DNA of 38,699 nucleotides, from contig JAQVER010000034.1 in the NCBI GenBank assembly GCA_028697885.1, forward strand, positions 1 through 38,699, in the 5' to 3' direction. How positions within the stretch are numbered: the first letter of the stretch is position 1; each line of letters begins with the position of its first letter. The notes below the pieces were generated by a model. It searched no databases and was not told the DNA's origin. It saw only the letters and a program-made list of their open reading frames with translations. The translations under genes were made by a program, and so were the position numbers. Shown here in pieces: positions 10,880 to 16,530 of this stretch. This DNA comes from Desulfocapsaceae bacterium (GTDB taxonomy: Bacteria; Desulfobacterota; Desulfobulbia; Desulfobulbales; Desulfocapsaceae).

Positions 10880-12997
10880 TTATATGGCTGAGAGAGGAGA
10901 CTGGAGGACCACGGCCCCCATTGGTTTGACCTTGATTGTTGTTTTAGGGATCTTGGACGGGGCCTGTTGCAGGGAAAGAAAATTATAAGGAGAGTCAAGG
11001 CTGGTGTCGATGATCTGATACCATCTCTGACTTTTGTTACCCGGTACTTGCGGCAGAGTGAAGAGGGCCTCTTTCTTCCTGTCTCCGTTGAGCATGATGA
11101 AAAAATGGTCATTCTGGTCGCTCGCTGATTTACTGCCGTGGAGGAGAAAGGCGAGAGTGTGACATTCGGCAGACCAATCCTCCAGGCAAGGCTTTGTTGA
11201 GTGCCAGCTGATCTCAAGATTTTCCCCGGTACATTGCTCGTTTTCACCCTGTTTGAAAAAACTTGTCCGCTGAAAAATGGAATGGGTTTTGCGCAGCTGA
11301 ATACAGTGTTTGAAAAAGCGGAGCAGCCCCTTGTTTTTTCCCACAAGATCCCAGTTGAGCCAGTTGGTATTGTTGTCCTGACACCAGCTGTTGTTGTTTC
11401 CTTTCTTGCTGTGTCCAAATTCGTCGCCAGCGTTGATCATGGGGACTCCCTGGGAGAGCAGCATGATCAAAATCATGCTGCGTATCCGTCGGAGTCGTAA
11501 TTCCTGAATGGATTTGTTGTGGGTGGAGCCTTCCGCCCCGCTGTTCCAGCTGATGTTATGGTTGTCGCCGTCACGATTTTCTTCCCCATTTTCCTGATTA
11601 TGCTTTTCGTTAAAGCTTACCAGATCATAGAGGGTAAAACCATCGTGACTGGTTATGAAGTTGATGGAGTTAAAAGGATGGCGGGAGCTGGACTGGTAAA
11701 GGTCGGAGCTGCCGGCAATGCGGGTGGCCAGATTGGCCACCGTATTTTCATGGCCTGCCATGAACGCGCGTATATCATCACGGAATCTGCCGTTCCACTC
11801 GGCCCAGCGCACATCGGTGGAAAAGGTACCCACCTGGTAGAGACCACCGGCGTCCCATGCCTCGGCAATGATCTTAGTGTCGCGCAGAACCGGGTCTTCG
11901 GCGATCATCTCGATCATGGGTGGATTGGCCAGGAGATGCCCTGAGGTGTCTCGCCCTAAAATAGAGGCGAGGTCAAAACGGAAGCCATCAATGTGCATCT
12001 CCATGACCCAATAGCGAAGAGAGTCCCTGATCAGCTCTCTGACTACCGGATGGTTGCAGTTCATGGTGTTGCCGCAGCCGGAAAAGTTCAGGTATTCCTG
12101 GGTCTGTTTGTCCAGCAGATAGTAGATGTTGTTGTCAATACCCCTGAAGCTGCTGGTGGTGCCGTCATATCCACCCTCGCCGGTGTGATTATACACCATG
12201 TCGAGAATAACCTCTATTCCAGCTTGGTGCAAAGCTAGTACCATGGTCTTGAATTCATTGATGTGCTGGACGGTATTTGCGGCATATCCAGATTTTAAGG
12301 CGAAAAAAGAGATGGGATTATAGCCCCAGAAATTTTTAAGCAGTTTACCGTTCGCCGGATTTCTGAATATGTTATCGTTTTCATCGAACTCGGTAACTGG
12401 CATCAGTTCCACCGCCGTGATCCCTAAGTCCTGCAGGTAGGGGATCTTTTCCATGATACCATGATAGGTGCCGGGATGGGTCACCTTTGAACTTGGATGA
12501 CGTGTGAAACCGCGGACATGCATCTCGTAGATGATCGATTTGGCGAGAGGGATGTTTAGAGGCCGATCATTCTGCCAGTCGAAATCGTGTTTGATGATGC
12601 CGCAGCTGGGTAAGTCCCTGTCTGAGATTGTCTCGCCCCATATACGAGGTCGGTGAACATGGCTTTCGGGATCAAGGAGAAGAATTCCCTCGTCGTACAC
12701 CAAGCCGTTTGTCTTTTGAGATACTGGCCCTTTGATCCGATATCCGTAGCGAAGATCGTTCCTGTCGGTTTGGAGGAGGATATGCCAGAGGTCGCCGGTC
12801 CTGTTGATCTTGGGGTCCAGCGGGAATTGCACCTGTTCTCGGAGTCCTTTTGTCGTTTTCGGAAGATCAATGACCAGCGTCACTGCTTCGGCATGGCGGG
12901 AAAAGATTGAAAAATTAATACCTTCGCTGAGGATCGTGGTGCCGGTTGGCAGGGCGAATCCTCTGCTGGTGACAATTTTATTTTTTTTCTTGGACAT
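10880..12997 (-). CDS. glgX: Glycogen debranching enzyme (isoamylase type)
   Basis: The protein has 705 residues, a usual GlgX/TreX length. An N-terminal CBM48-like domain (about 10-130) is followed by the GH13 barrel. Catalytic features are DMVYNHTGEGG (266-276), GFRFDLAS with nucleophile Asp342, IIAEAWDAGG with acid/base Glu379, and the FITSHDGFTLYDL stretch with the transition-state Asp. It should remove alpha-1,6 branches from glycogen or limit dextrin. The YRIKGPVS and WGYNPISFFA segments are typical of the GlgX group. ATG at 12997 has no clear ribosome site. The spacer to the next gene (12998-13165) is a divergent promoter region. Glycogen storage genes next to it are not in the window. 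Confidence 0.95.
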   Translation of the reverse strand: MSKKKNKIVTSRGFALPTGTTILSEGINFSIFSRHAEAVTLVIDLPKTTKGLREQVQFPLDPKINRTGDLWHILLQTDRNDLRYGYRIKGPVSQKTNGLVYDEGILLLDPESHVHRPRIWGETISDRDLPSCGIIKHDFDWQNDRPLNIPLAKSIIYEMHVRGFTRHPSSKVTHPGTYHGIMEKIPYLQDLGITAVELMPVTEFDENDNIFRNPANGKLLKNFWGYNPISFFALKSGYAANTVQHINEFKTMVLALHQAGIEVILDMVYNHTGEGGYDGTTSSFRGIDNNIYYLLDKQTQEYLNFSGCGNTMNCNHPVVRELIRDSLRYWVMEMHIDGFRFDLASILGRDTSGHLLANPPMIEMIAEDPVLRDTKIIAEAWDAGGLYQVGTFSTDVRWAEWNGRFRDDIRAFMAGHENTVANLATRIAGSSDLYQSSSRHPFNSINFITSHDGFTLYDLVSFNEKHNQENGEENRDGDNHNISWNSGAEGSTHNKSIQELRLRRIRSMILIMLLSQGVPMINAGDEFGHSKKGNNNSWCQDNNTNWLNWDLVGKNKGLLRFFKHCIQLRKTHSIFQRTSFFKQGENEQCTGENLEISWHSTKPCLEDWSAECHTLAFLLHGSKSASDQNDHFFIMLNGDRKKEALFTLPQVPGNKSQRWYQIIDTSLDSPYNFLSLQQAPSKIPKTTIKVKPMGAVVLQSPLSAI

Positions 12998-14196: not shown

Positions 14197-16530
14197 CTAT
14201 TCCTCTTTGTCGTCAAGGGGTTTCCAGACCGGTCCTGTGGCCGTATCGATGATTTGGATTCCCTGGCGCAGTAGTTCGTCGCGCGCATCATCGGCGGCCT
14301 GCCAGTCTTTTTCAGCTCTGGCTTTTTCGCGGCGGCAGATCAGGGTGTTCACGGCCGGGGCCAGCGGGCAGCCCTTCAGTCTGAAAATATGGAGGACCTG
14401 ATTGATTTTGTTAAAACTATCCAGAATATATTTTTTCTGATCATGGTCAAGGTGGTTGACGTGGAGGATAGGGTTGACGATATTGATAAATTTATAGATG
14501 GCACCCAGCCCCTTGGAGACGTTGAGGTCATCATCCATGGCCTCAAAAAACTGTTCGGTCATGGCGGAGACAAAGGCGGCGATTTCAGGGTGCGGTTTGC
14601 CTGGCGGCAGACAGAGAAGCTTGCAGGTAAATTCATCAATGCGGCGTAAGGCCGTACGGACGTTGATCAGTCTTTTGAAAGAGAAATTCAGTGGTTTCCG
14701 GTAGTGGACTGAAAGCAGCATGAAGCGCACCTCGCGGGGAGTGAATCCGCGGAGGATCAGATCATTGAGGGTCACCATGTTCCCCGCCTCAGCCGACATC
14801 ATCTTGCCATCCACCAGCAGCAGTTCGGAATGCAGCCAGTATTTCGCCAGAGGTTTACCTGTCAGGGCCTCGGCAATGGCGATCTCGTTTTCGTGGTGGG
14901 GAAAAATAAGATTCCGGCTGCTGGTGTGGATATCCAGAGTCTTCCCAAGGTAACGGGTGGACATGGCCGAACATTCGATATGCCAGCCCGGGCGCACATT
15001 TCCCCAGTCGGTCTCAAAAAATATCCCTTTCTTCAGCTCTGCCAGGGTGGAGCGTTTGAGCAAGGTGAAGTCGCGGGGGTTATCCTTTTCATAGTTATCC
15101 AGATCAACAGTCCTGCCCAAGCGGATCTTGCTCAGGTCAATGCCTGACAGGCGACCATAGCGCTTGAATTTGGAGATGTCAAAGTAGATGGAGCCATGTT
15201 TCTCATAGGCAAAACCCTTATGGATGAGCTCGTGGCTGATCTCGATCATGTCGGCGACATGCTCTGAGGCCTTAGGGTAGCCAGTGGCCCGTTTAACGCC
15301 CAAGGCATCAATGGCCTCCATGAACCCTTCAATGTATTTGCTGGTAAATTCGGAAAGCGAAACTCCGGCCTTGTTGGCGCCATCGATGGTATTGTCATCA
15401 AGATCAGTGAAGTTCATATAGGAATCCACTGTCAGTCCCTTGCTTTCAAGATAGCGGGTGATCAGGTCGGTGACGATAAACCGGCGGCAGAGGGAAAGAT
15501 TGGGCGGTTCGTAGGCGGTTGGCCCGCAGGTATAAAAGGTGACTTTCCCTTCGGTCTGTGGCGTGAAAATTTCTTTTTTCTTGCTCAGGGTGTTAAAAAA
15601 ACGTAATTGAGATGTCTTCTCTGAACTCTGTGGCTTGCGTGTAAATAGGGGAGTACTCAGGTAGCGCTCCCCGCTGTCCGGGAGCAGAGTGACAATGAAC
15701 CCTTCCTCTAGCTTTTTCGCCAGGTTAATGGCGGTAAACATGGCCGCACCACTGCTCATCCCCACCAGTAACCCCTCTTTCCGGGCCAGCAGCCTGGCCA
15801 TCTGAAAGGCGTCTTCATCTTTAATATTGACGATCTCACTGGCTTTTGATTTGTCAAAAATCCCGGGACGATAGGACTCTTTCATGTTTTTCAGCCCCTG
15901 GATCTTATGGTCGAGAAAGGGCTCGACTGCGATGATCTGCACTTGGGGTTGGTGTTCACTGAACCAGGCGCACAGTCCCATCACCGTGCCGGAGGTTCCA
16001 AGGGTGGCCACAATATGGGTCACCTGCCCTTCCGTCTGCTGCCAGATCTCAGGGGCGGTTCCGGTGTAATGGGCCTGCCAGTTGGCCTCATTATTAAACT
16101 GATCAGTGAGGAAATAGCGTTCCGGGTATTCACGGGCCATGGCATAGGCCTTTTCAATGGCCCCATCGGTGCTCCTATGGGCGGGAGTCAGCAGGATTTC
16201 GGCACCATAGGCCTGCATGATCTTGCGGCGTTCGAGCGAAGCGGACTCAGACATGATCAGCAGGCAGCGATACCCTTTGGCCGCGCAGACCATAGCCAGT
16301 CCAATTCCGGTATTGCCACTGGTGGCTTCGAGTACGATCTTGTCAGGCGTGAGTTCGCCGCTTTTTTCACCAGCCTCGATCATGGCAAGGGCGATACGCT
16401 CTTTTACCGAGCCGCCCGGGTTGGCAGATTCCAACTTTCCATACAGCCGAACTTTGTCATTGGGGCACAGACGATTGATCCGAATCAGAGGGGTGTTGCC
16501 AATGGCCTCTAGAACTGTGTTATAGAGCAT
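14197..16530 (-). CDS. Cysteine synthase fused to a CysRS-like domain with altered class I motifs
   Basis: ATG at 16530 is preferred over a TTG 18 bases upstream because MLYNTVLEAIGNTP is the usual cysteine synthase start. Residues 1-300 are a PLP enzyme with Schiff-base K43 in NPGGSVKER, SGNTG at 71-75 and GTSGT at 178-182, so this half looks able to make cysteine from O-acetylserine and sulfide. Residues about 325-777 are a cysteinyl-tRNA synthetase-like domain. Its zinc/cysteine ligands are kept (C335 in TCGPT, C520 in WHIECS, H545 and E549 in HHENE). The class I sites are changed: HIGN is NLSL (344-347), the KIIK site is NTID (380-383), and KMSKSLGN is KMMSAEAGN (576-584). The DIHGGGxDL loop is DIHTSSRNL. 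The second half may thus bind cysteine without charging tRNA, for example as a sensor of the product. A normal CysRS would be expected elsewhere. Confidence 0.9.
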   Translation of the reverse strand: MLYNTVLEAIGNTPLIRINRLCPNDKVRLYGKLESANPGGSVKERIALAMIEAGEKSGELTPDKIVLEATSGNTGIGLAMVCAAKGYRCLLIMSESASLERRKIMQAYGAEILLTPAHRSTDGAIEKAYAMAREYPERYFLTDQFNNEANWQAHYTGTAPEIWQQTEGQVTHIVATLGTSGTVMGLCAWFSEHQPQVQIIAVEPFLDHKIQGLKNMKESYRPGIFDKSKASEIVNIKDEDAFQMARLLARKEGLLVGMSSGAAMFTAINLAKKLEEGFIVTLLPDSGERYLSTPLFTRKPQSSEKTSQLRFFNTLSKKKEIFTPQTEGKVTFYTCGPTAYEPPNLSLCRRFIVTDLITRYLESKGLTVDSYMNFTDLDDNTIDGANKAGVSLSEFTSKYIEGFMEAIDALGVKRATGYPKASEHVADMIEISHELIHKGFAYEKHGSIYFDISKFKRYGRLSGIDLSKIRLGRTVDLDNYEKDNPRDFTLLKRSTLAELKKGIFFETDWGNVRPGWHIECSAMSTRYLGKTLDIHTSSRNLIFPHHENEIAIAEALTGKPLAKYWLHSELLLVDGKMMSAEAGNMVTLNDLILRGFTPREVRFMLLSVHYRKPLNFSFKRLINVRTALRRIDEFTCKLLCLPPGKPHPEIAAFVSAMTEQFFEAMDDDLNVSKGLGAIYKFINIVNPILHVNHLDHDQKKYILDSFNKINQVLHIFRLKGCPLAPAVNTLICRREKARAEKDWQAADDARDELLRQGIQIIDTATGPVWKPLDDKEE

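Follow-up and report, generated by a model that had tools for sequence, protein, structure and literature searches.

The window, meaning the whole 38,699-nucleotide stretch of Desulfocapsaceae DNA analysed here, encodes on its minus strand a single protein in which a PLP-dependent cysteine synthase is followed by a CysRS-like module stripped of its adenylation motifs, and the near-constant feature of that module among related fusions, judged by residue conservation, is its tRNA-reading part, more than zinc or cysteine binding. Because anticodon reading has been kept more strictly than the zinc site, the module points to tRNA-Cys and not only to free cysteine. We put forward, at a confidence poised midway between doubt and acceptance, the reading that the fusion joins a cysteine synthase to a pseudo-CysRS that would no longer activate cysteine but would still dock tRNA-Cys, so that the state of tRNA-Cys would bear on the making of cysteine. 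A search of titles and abstract openings in the open-licence PMC literature found no published description of a cysteine synthase/CysRS-like fusion, and the available portions of six articles carry no mention of it (PMC2922099, PMC9437257, PMC12684709, PMC10655014, PMC5424206, PMC9774590).

The gene opens with an ATG at 16530 and continues without an internal stop to the stop codon ending at 14197 (Table 1); the plus strand of the same interval holds many stops. Its N-terminus (MLYN...) is conserved among same-genus relatives, and a chance frame or a pseudogene can be excluded because dozens of species share the long frame. Pfam matches, all exceeding their cut-offs, cover residues 7-285 (PALP), 322-623 (tRNA-synt_1e), 660-716 (DALR_2) and 723-760 (CysS_C). 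Both the cysKM and the cysS models of NCBIfam pass, the latter with 381.3 bits at a cut-off of 340, and the MshC model falls below its own (189.5 vs 485.1 bits). The PLP lysine K43 and the SGNTG and GTSGT motifs of cysteine synthases are all present; together with the frame and the Pfam matches they bear out an earlier sequence-only reading, which had described, without naming a strand, a complete PLP cysteine synthase joined to a CysRS-like domain. By these features the first part is an OASS-type cysteine synthase with intact catalytic signatures, predicted to make cysteine from sulfide and O-acetylserine or O-phosphoserine. It shares fold and signatures with CysK and CysM (2q3b, 2bhs) and exceeds the cysKM cut-off, but reaches neither the CysK nor the CysM cut-off and differs from both enzymes in carrying the C-terminal pseudo-CysRS. 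Upstream on the same strand lies a run of mutS, an amidase gene and dciA, the last separated from the fusion by 141 bases.

Table 1. Features of the fusion gene in the window
Feature	Position	Strand	Remark
Cysteine synthase/CysRS-like fusion gene	14197..16530	minus	one 777-aa frame
Cysteine synthase domain, CysK/CysM type, residues 5-296	15643..16518	minus	PALP; TIGR01136 cysKM above cut-off
Linker, residues 297-308	15607..15642	minus	low confidence in structure model
CysRS-like catalytic domain, residues 309-623, adenylation motifs lost	14662..15606	minus	PF01406 297.7 bits
Former HIGH motif = NLSL, residues 344-347, then C-R-R	15490..15501	minus	
Former GGG loop = TSS, residues 536-538	14917..14925	minus	
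Former KMSKS loop = MMSAE, residues 577-581	14788..14802	minus	very variable across fusions
Span with four zinc ligands C335, C520, H545, E549, all present	14884..15528	minus	
DALR domain, residues 660-716	14383..14553	minus	Pfam
CysS_C anticodon-binding domain	14221..14364	minus	holds R734, R738, D747, R750, D762

An AlphaFold2 model of the protein (mean pLDDT 85.2) leaves the orientation of the domains uncertain (pTM 0.58), so that no gating contact between them is visible. The linker (residues 295-306) falls below a pLDDT of 50, further weak stretches occur at 207-223 and 468-483, and confidence is low around Y480-K482 in a stretch specific to the fusions. Foldseek matched the model to CysRS structures, among them the tRNA-bound 1u0b (485 alignment columns), and also, separately, to the cysteine synthases 2q3b and 2bhs. 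With bacterial CysRS, represented by the E. coli enzyme (1li5/1u0b) and the host's own copy, the fusion has in common the whole fold, the DALR and anticodon domains, the zinc ligands and the anticodon readers; it differs in lacking HIGH, GGG and KMSKS and in possessing the cysteine synthase, a near-invariant R350 and the fusion-specific stretch Y480...G502.

The sequence-only reading had called for a genome search for a second, canonical CysRS, and one with intact HIGH and KMSKS was found on another contig of the host genome (G000:C48). Aligned with this copy, to which it is identical at 170 of 454 positions, the fusion has NLSL in place of HIGH, NTI in place of KII and TSS in place of GGG, and a gap-free register sets MMSAE opposite KMSKS. 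The KIIK and GGGxDL changes had thus been read correctly, and NLSL does occupy the site first assigned to it, although the canonical motif there is HIGH and not 'HIGN'; the KMSKS motif is likewise lost, but the register does not yield the nine-letter KMMSAEAGN that had been proposed. All four zinc ligands (C335, C520, H545, E549) remain, as had been stated. These motif changes make it improbable that the CysRS-like domain works as a synthetase, which agrees with the earlier view: the adenylation motifs are altered in 82 of 82 fusions and intact in 21 of 21 canonical enzymes, and a second CysRS exists.

The anticodon domain, of which that reading made no mention, tells of a different history. 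Alignment with 1li5/1u0b equates R734, R738, W743 and D747 of the fusion with R423, R427, W432 and D436 of E. coli CysRS, and R750 and D762 with R439 and D451, which we take to be anticodon contacts as well; by alignment, the residues of the anticodon domain that read GCA are present. According to the available portion of one structural account, G34 is hydrogen-bonded by R427 and D436 of the E. coli enzyme and stacked upon by W432, with R423 taking part in its water network (PMC12684709).

To follow these residues across the family, 99 loci with a fusion frame were reduced by duplicate removal to 82 fusions, a sample that leans towards the host's own family, and set beside 21 canonical CysRS of the same phylum; one fusion fragment without SGNTG (L029), sorted among the canonical rows, was dropped. 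None of the 82 retains both HIGH histidines, KMSKS or GGG, each of which is intact in all 21 canonical copies. The complete zinc set survives in 61 of the 82 fusions (canonical, 21/21), five having lost both zinc cysteines, whereas 80 have the whole anticodon set R734/R738/D747/R750/D762 (canonical, 21/21) and position 743 is aromatic in every fusion and every canonical row. A second alignment (A2), built from the window and 51 of the 61 full-length loci that the contig scan described below supplied, repeats the pattern over its 52 rows: both HIGH histidines, KMSKS and GGG in none, zinc sets in 35, anticodon sets in 52, and K43 with SGNTG in 52. Twelve of these rows, the window included, are at least 95% identical to one of the 82; counted apart, the other 40 give none for HIGH, KMSKS and GGG, 25/40 for zinc, 40/40 for the anticodon set and 40/40 for K43 with SGNTG. 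When the fusions were weighted by 70% identity clusters (39 clusters), retention was 0.35 in the ATP motifs and 0.88 in the invariants of the anticodon domain, with the zinc ligands at 0.83; the canonical invariants of residues 309-725 taken together, the motifs among them, scored 0.64. Because the zinc ligands are also well kept by this measure, they differ from the anticodon set in degree. Two further canonical invariants, T767 and W769, are less well kept (18 and 68 of 82).

A tree built by a quick method from 53 of the 82 fusions (29 near relatives being omitted) and the 21 canonical rows, and drawn without MshC or CysRS of other phyla, sets the fusions apart from the canonical copies as one clade with support 100. 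The minimum number of changes on this tree is five for the complete zinc set, seven for the first HIGH histidine, nine for K577 and nine for K/R at position 580; the anticodon set changes once, as R738 to K in two related rows, and zinc sites have been lost in several clades in which the anticodon residues stay. The suggestion that the zinc/cysteine site is the point of the module is therefore not supported as it stood, given a zinc set complete in only 61 of 82 fusions, at least five changes on the tree and five fusions without both cysteines; a cysteine-binding module is still compatible with the zinc site present here, but it leaves aside the set that is hardly ever lost. The alignment of fusions that had been recommended confirms the loss of HIGH and KMSKS in all 82, yet the former KMSKS loop proves very variable and some clades keep HLGN and KMSRS. 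The linker is the least conserved of seven stretches compared. Conversely, R350, Y480, R493, K500, G502 and G595 are each constant in 82 of 82 fusions (R350 also in 51 of the 52 A2 rows), and the presence of such fusion-specific constants in the pocket suggests that the old active site is still constrained, no longer for adenylation.

We infer from this pattern tRNA-Cys binding, reading of its 3' end, sensing of its charging, the direction of control and an effect on the synthase. Under the proposed mechanism, uncharged tRNA-Cys would build up when cysteine runs short, R734/R738/D747 would read its anticodon, and the old active-site cleft would receive its 3' end; there the zinc site that most sampled fusions retain could in addition recognise cysteine, either free or on Cys-tRNA, and the docked state would alter synthase activity by gating or positioning the synthase. 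Such control logic would resemble that of the HisRS-like domain of Gcn2, and HisZ would be the parallel for a dead synthetase attached to an enzyme of biosynthesis. Gcn2 likewise bears a synthetase-like domain within an enzyme and is activated by uncharged tRNA, according to the accessible part of the source (PMC4335047), but it is a eukaryotic kinase with a HisRS-like domain, whereas the fusion is a biosynthetic enzyme with a CysRS-like one. At the residue level the fusions have a Gcn2-like pattern, with anticodon sets in 80 of 82 and HIGH and KMSKS in none. Points against a tRNA sensor include that an active synthetase would also keep its anticodon residues, that no canonical CysRS was detected in the g11 genomes described below, and that neither an operon (41 loci) nor an RNA element (window) that would support regulation was found.

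Other known derivatives of CysRS present a different picture. MshC, the mycothiol cysteine ligase (8hfm/3c8z), shares a CysRS-derived catalytic domain with the fusion and is described in the available text of one review as an ATP-using ligase (PMC9437257). The phmmer match to MshC extends only to residue 329 of the 473-residue query, without the anticodon domain, and the MshC pattern, in which the ATP motifs are present and an anticodon domain is not, is the opposite of that of the fusion. The CysRS* that accompanies SelC* in some Desulfobacterales is, in the same portion of that review, another CysRS paralog from the same broad bacterial group (PMC9437257). It has no anticodon domain and charges a UGA tRNA, so that the fusion keeps the opposite parts.

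The genomic setting was surveyed at several scales. Within the family, a search with the CysRS-like part found the fusion in 52 of 60 genomes: fusion-type matches, 71-100% identical, occur in 49 of them, those of G043 and G047 being partial, and another three (G008, G048, G053) yield fragments of 57-97 residues at 66-79% identity. Across the phylum, a profile of the fusion-specific stretch found it in 59 of 148 genomes, 58 of them at 104.6-145 bits and one as a contig-edge fragment at 70, the rest scoring no higher than 54.8; all matches above 100 bits (58 genomes) sit in frames of at least 704 residues. A scan of genome contigs yielded at least 561 stretches encoding relatives of the fusion-specific segment, and the titles of the best 80 include Desulfobulbus, Desulfosarcina, Desulfocapsa and Desulfobacca. 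Many relatives bear the names of sulfate-reducing genera. The host carries dsrA, which exceeds its cut-off in 53 of the 59 fusion genomes as compared with 21 of the 89 others (Fisher p 5e-16, uncorrected for shared ancestry); of the six fusion genomes without it, five are drafts at 62-90% completeness, and the remaining one, G189, has a stated completeness of 100%. The association serves here as context only.

The neighbourhoods examined numbered 41 (40 loci plus the window; in five loci an overlapping frame stood in for the fusion, and several stop at contig ends). A conserved neighbourhood was considered as a clue to the pathway and rejected, no cluster of non-fusion frames being found in more than five of the 41 loci, among which no conserved operon tying the fusion to cysteine metabolism was seen. 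The window gave no Rfam match at gathering scores, and so no RNA regulator, and no tRNA near the fusion gene; the 40 fetched loci held no tRNA-Cys. In the host genome, ARAGORN named 39 of 40 Rfam tRNA matches, exactly one being tRNA-Cys (GCA), and did not accept the weakest (31 bits) as a tRNA. On contig C150 of the same genome, a stand-alone CysK-like gene adjoins a serine acetyltransferase-like gene whose match to the cysE model is below cut-off; because this separate CysK-like gene exists, the fusion is probably a second cysteine synthase, free to be specialised.

Among the alternatives, the one that best survives, which we think unlikely though deserving of attention, is a HisZ-like feedback sensor in which the zinc pocket would bind free cysteine and inhibit the synthase, the tRNA domain being a leftover. 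Consistent with such a sensor, the set of four zinc ligands is complete here, as it is in 61 of the 82 fusions, and the pocket residues W516, T375 and H535 persist in 81, 69 and 75 of 82. Drift would be expected in a leftover anticodon domain, however, and 80 of 82 fusions retain its readers while zinc has been lost in several clades. HisZ, moreover, is a separate class II subunit not known to carry an anticodon domain, whereas the fusion is a class I, covalent arrangement in which the anticodon readers are kept; with CysRS belonging to class I, the likeness is one of analogy and not of homology. The precedent itself, a non-activating synthetase paralog on the enzyme that makes the cognate amino acid (HisZ of the HisG-HisZ ATP phosphoribosyltransferase), is documented in the available part of a review, where HisZ senses histidine for HisG (PMC9437257).

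There is, in our estimate, a small chance that the module is still an active, unusual CysRS, or that the fusion is a bifunctional enzyme making cysteine and loading it on one chain. The retained anticodon residues and the HLGN and KMSRS of some clades would fit such an enzyme, and variant HIGH and KMSKS motifs are tolerated by some other class I synthetases; even so, both HIGH histidines and KMSKS are missing from all 82 fusions and the KMSKS loop varies greatly. Most fusion genomes also seem to keep a canonical CysRS, at least two CysRS-type matches occurring in 56 of 59 by match count alone; among the three exceptions, a piece of one lies at a contig edge in G082, and none was found in G064 and G137 (79% and 62% complete). 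The sequence-only reading had held that the absence of any other CysRS would mark the domain as an active synthetase. In the host genome a second copy exists, but in the related genus g11 no canonical CysRS was detected by PF01406 or TIGR00435 in five of five fusion-bearing draft genomes (85-94% complete), nor by PF01406 in G030, so that residual charging, or an active enzyme, keeps a small probability for the family as a whole. The g11 fusions themselves are as degenerate as that of the window. A transporter gene, the neighbour of canonical CysRS in several relatives, is also missing from the five g11 drafts and G030 (0/6), so the g11 locus may be unassembled or may have been lost as a block; another gene of the CysRS region was found in three of the five g11 genomes, at or near contig ends.

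We give little credence to the idea of a channel or scaffold, whereby the dead synthetase would dock tRNA-Cys or the true CysRS and deliver new cysteine to translation with no allostery. The maintained covalent fusion, the weakly predicted linker and the kept tRNA readers would all be in order, but free cysteine presumably diffuses fast enough to make the gain doubtful. Very improbable, in our view, is RNA-dependent cysteine making without SepRS, in which the 3' end of docked tRNA-Cys, as carrier of a serine-type group or as acceptor of the product, would work directly with the PLP site, and the fusion would help to make Cys-tRNA where canonical CysRS is undetected (g11, 5/5). Scarcely credible is a PLP-linked cysteine persulfide synthase of the CARS type (CPERS), with the synthase domain adding PLP chemistry: the host has dsrA, many relatives are named as sulfate-reducing genera, and the available portion of one report has E. 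coli CysRS forming persulfides with PLP on the KIIK and KMSK lysines (PMC10655014), but most of the lysines tested there are gone from the fusions (K380 is kept in 22, K580 in 2 and K577 in 54 of 82), and in the window's protein K380 is N and K577/K580 are M/A.

The preferred reading, a tRNA-Cys-docking pseudo-CysRS on a cysteine synthase, bears on both annotation and physiology. The fusion passes the cysS cut-off even though it lacks the catalytic motifs, a warning for automated naming in a family as widespread as this one. Dead synthetases that act as regulators are already known in HisZ and Gcn2, and one that keeps its tRNA-reading half while fused to the maker of the same amino acid offers a direct test case for the regulator idea. 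Many of the host cells make sulfide in bulk and may be unable to limit cysteine synthesis through sulfur supply. If the reading is true, the fusion would be a biosynthetic enzyme with its own tRNA gauge, by which the cysteine demand of translation would be read directly as the state of tRNA-Cys.

In the related genus g11, the fusion of cysteine synthase to a CysRS-like domain was found in all five genomes examined (G011, G026, G037, G045 and G051; loci L245-L249), and a canonical CysRS, the separate synthetase carrying HIGH and KMSKS, was undetected in the same five genomes. A transporter gene that neighbors CysRS in several relatives was likewise absent from each of them. Among the fusions, the first zinc cysteine (C335 in P0001, the fusion of the window) is missing from L088, L089, L092, L093, L095 and L101-L103, and both zinc cysteines (C335 and C520) from five (L089, L092, L101-L103), whereas the anticodon set (R734, R738, D747, R750 and D762) is still complete in these fusions.

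In the source genome, G000, the only tRNA-Cys gene found shares a stretch of ~8 kb on contig C150 with a serine acetyltransferase-like gene and a stand-alone CysK-like gene; contig C24 (6537-6594, L296) has a weak tRNA-like Rfam match (31 bits) with no ARAGORN call. A gene of the same cluster as the window glgX also lies at most two genes from the fusion in two distant loci (L102, L103), a recurrence that may reflect chance. A tRNA-Arg (TCT) gene adjoins the fusion in L066, L104 and L105, and lies ~4 kb from it in L067.

Features at and near the fusion
Feature	Window position	Strand	Detail
Glycogen debranching gene glgX	10880-12997		<=2 genes from fusion
Fusion-specific stretch, P0001 residues 480-502	15025-15093	minus	YEKxxPxDFxLLKRxxLxELKxG

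The fusion-specific stretch contains new invariant basic residues that are absent from the 21 canonical CysRS compared, and its start is modeled with low confidence in the predicted structure. It is possibly a new ligand site or a site for the tRNA 3' end.
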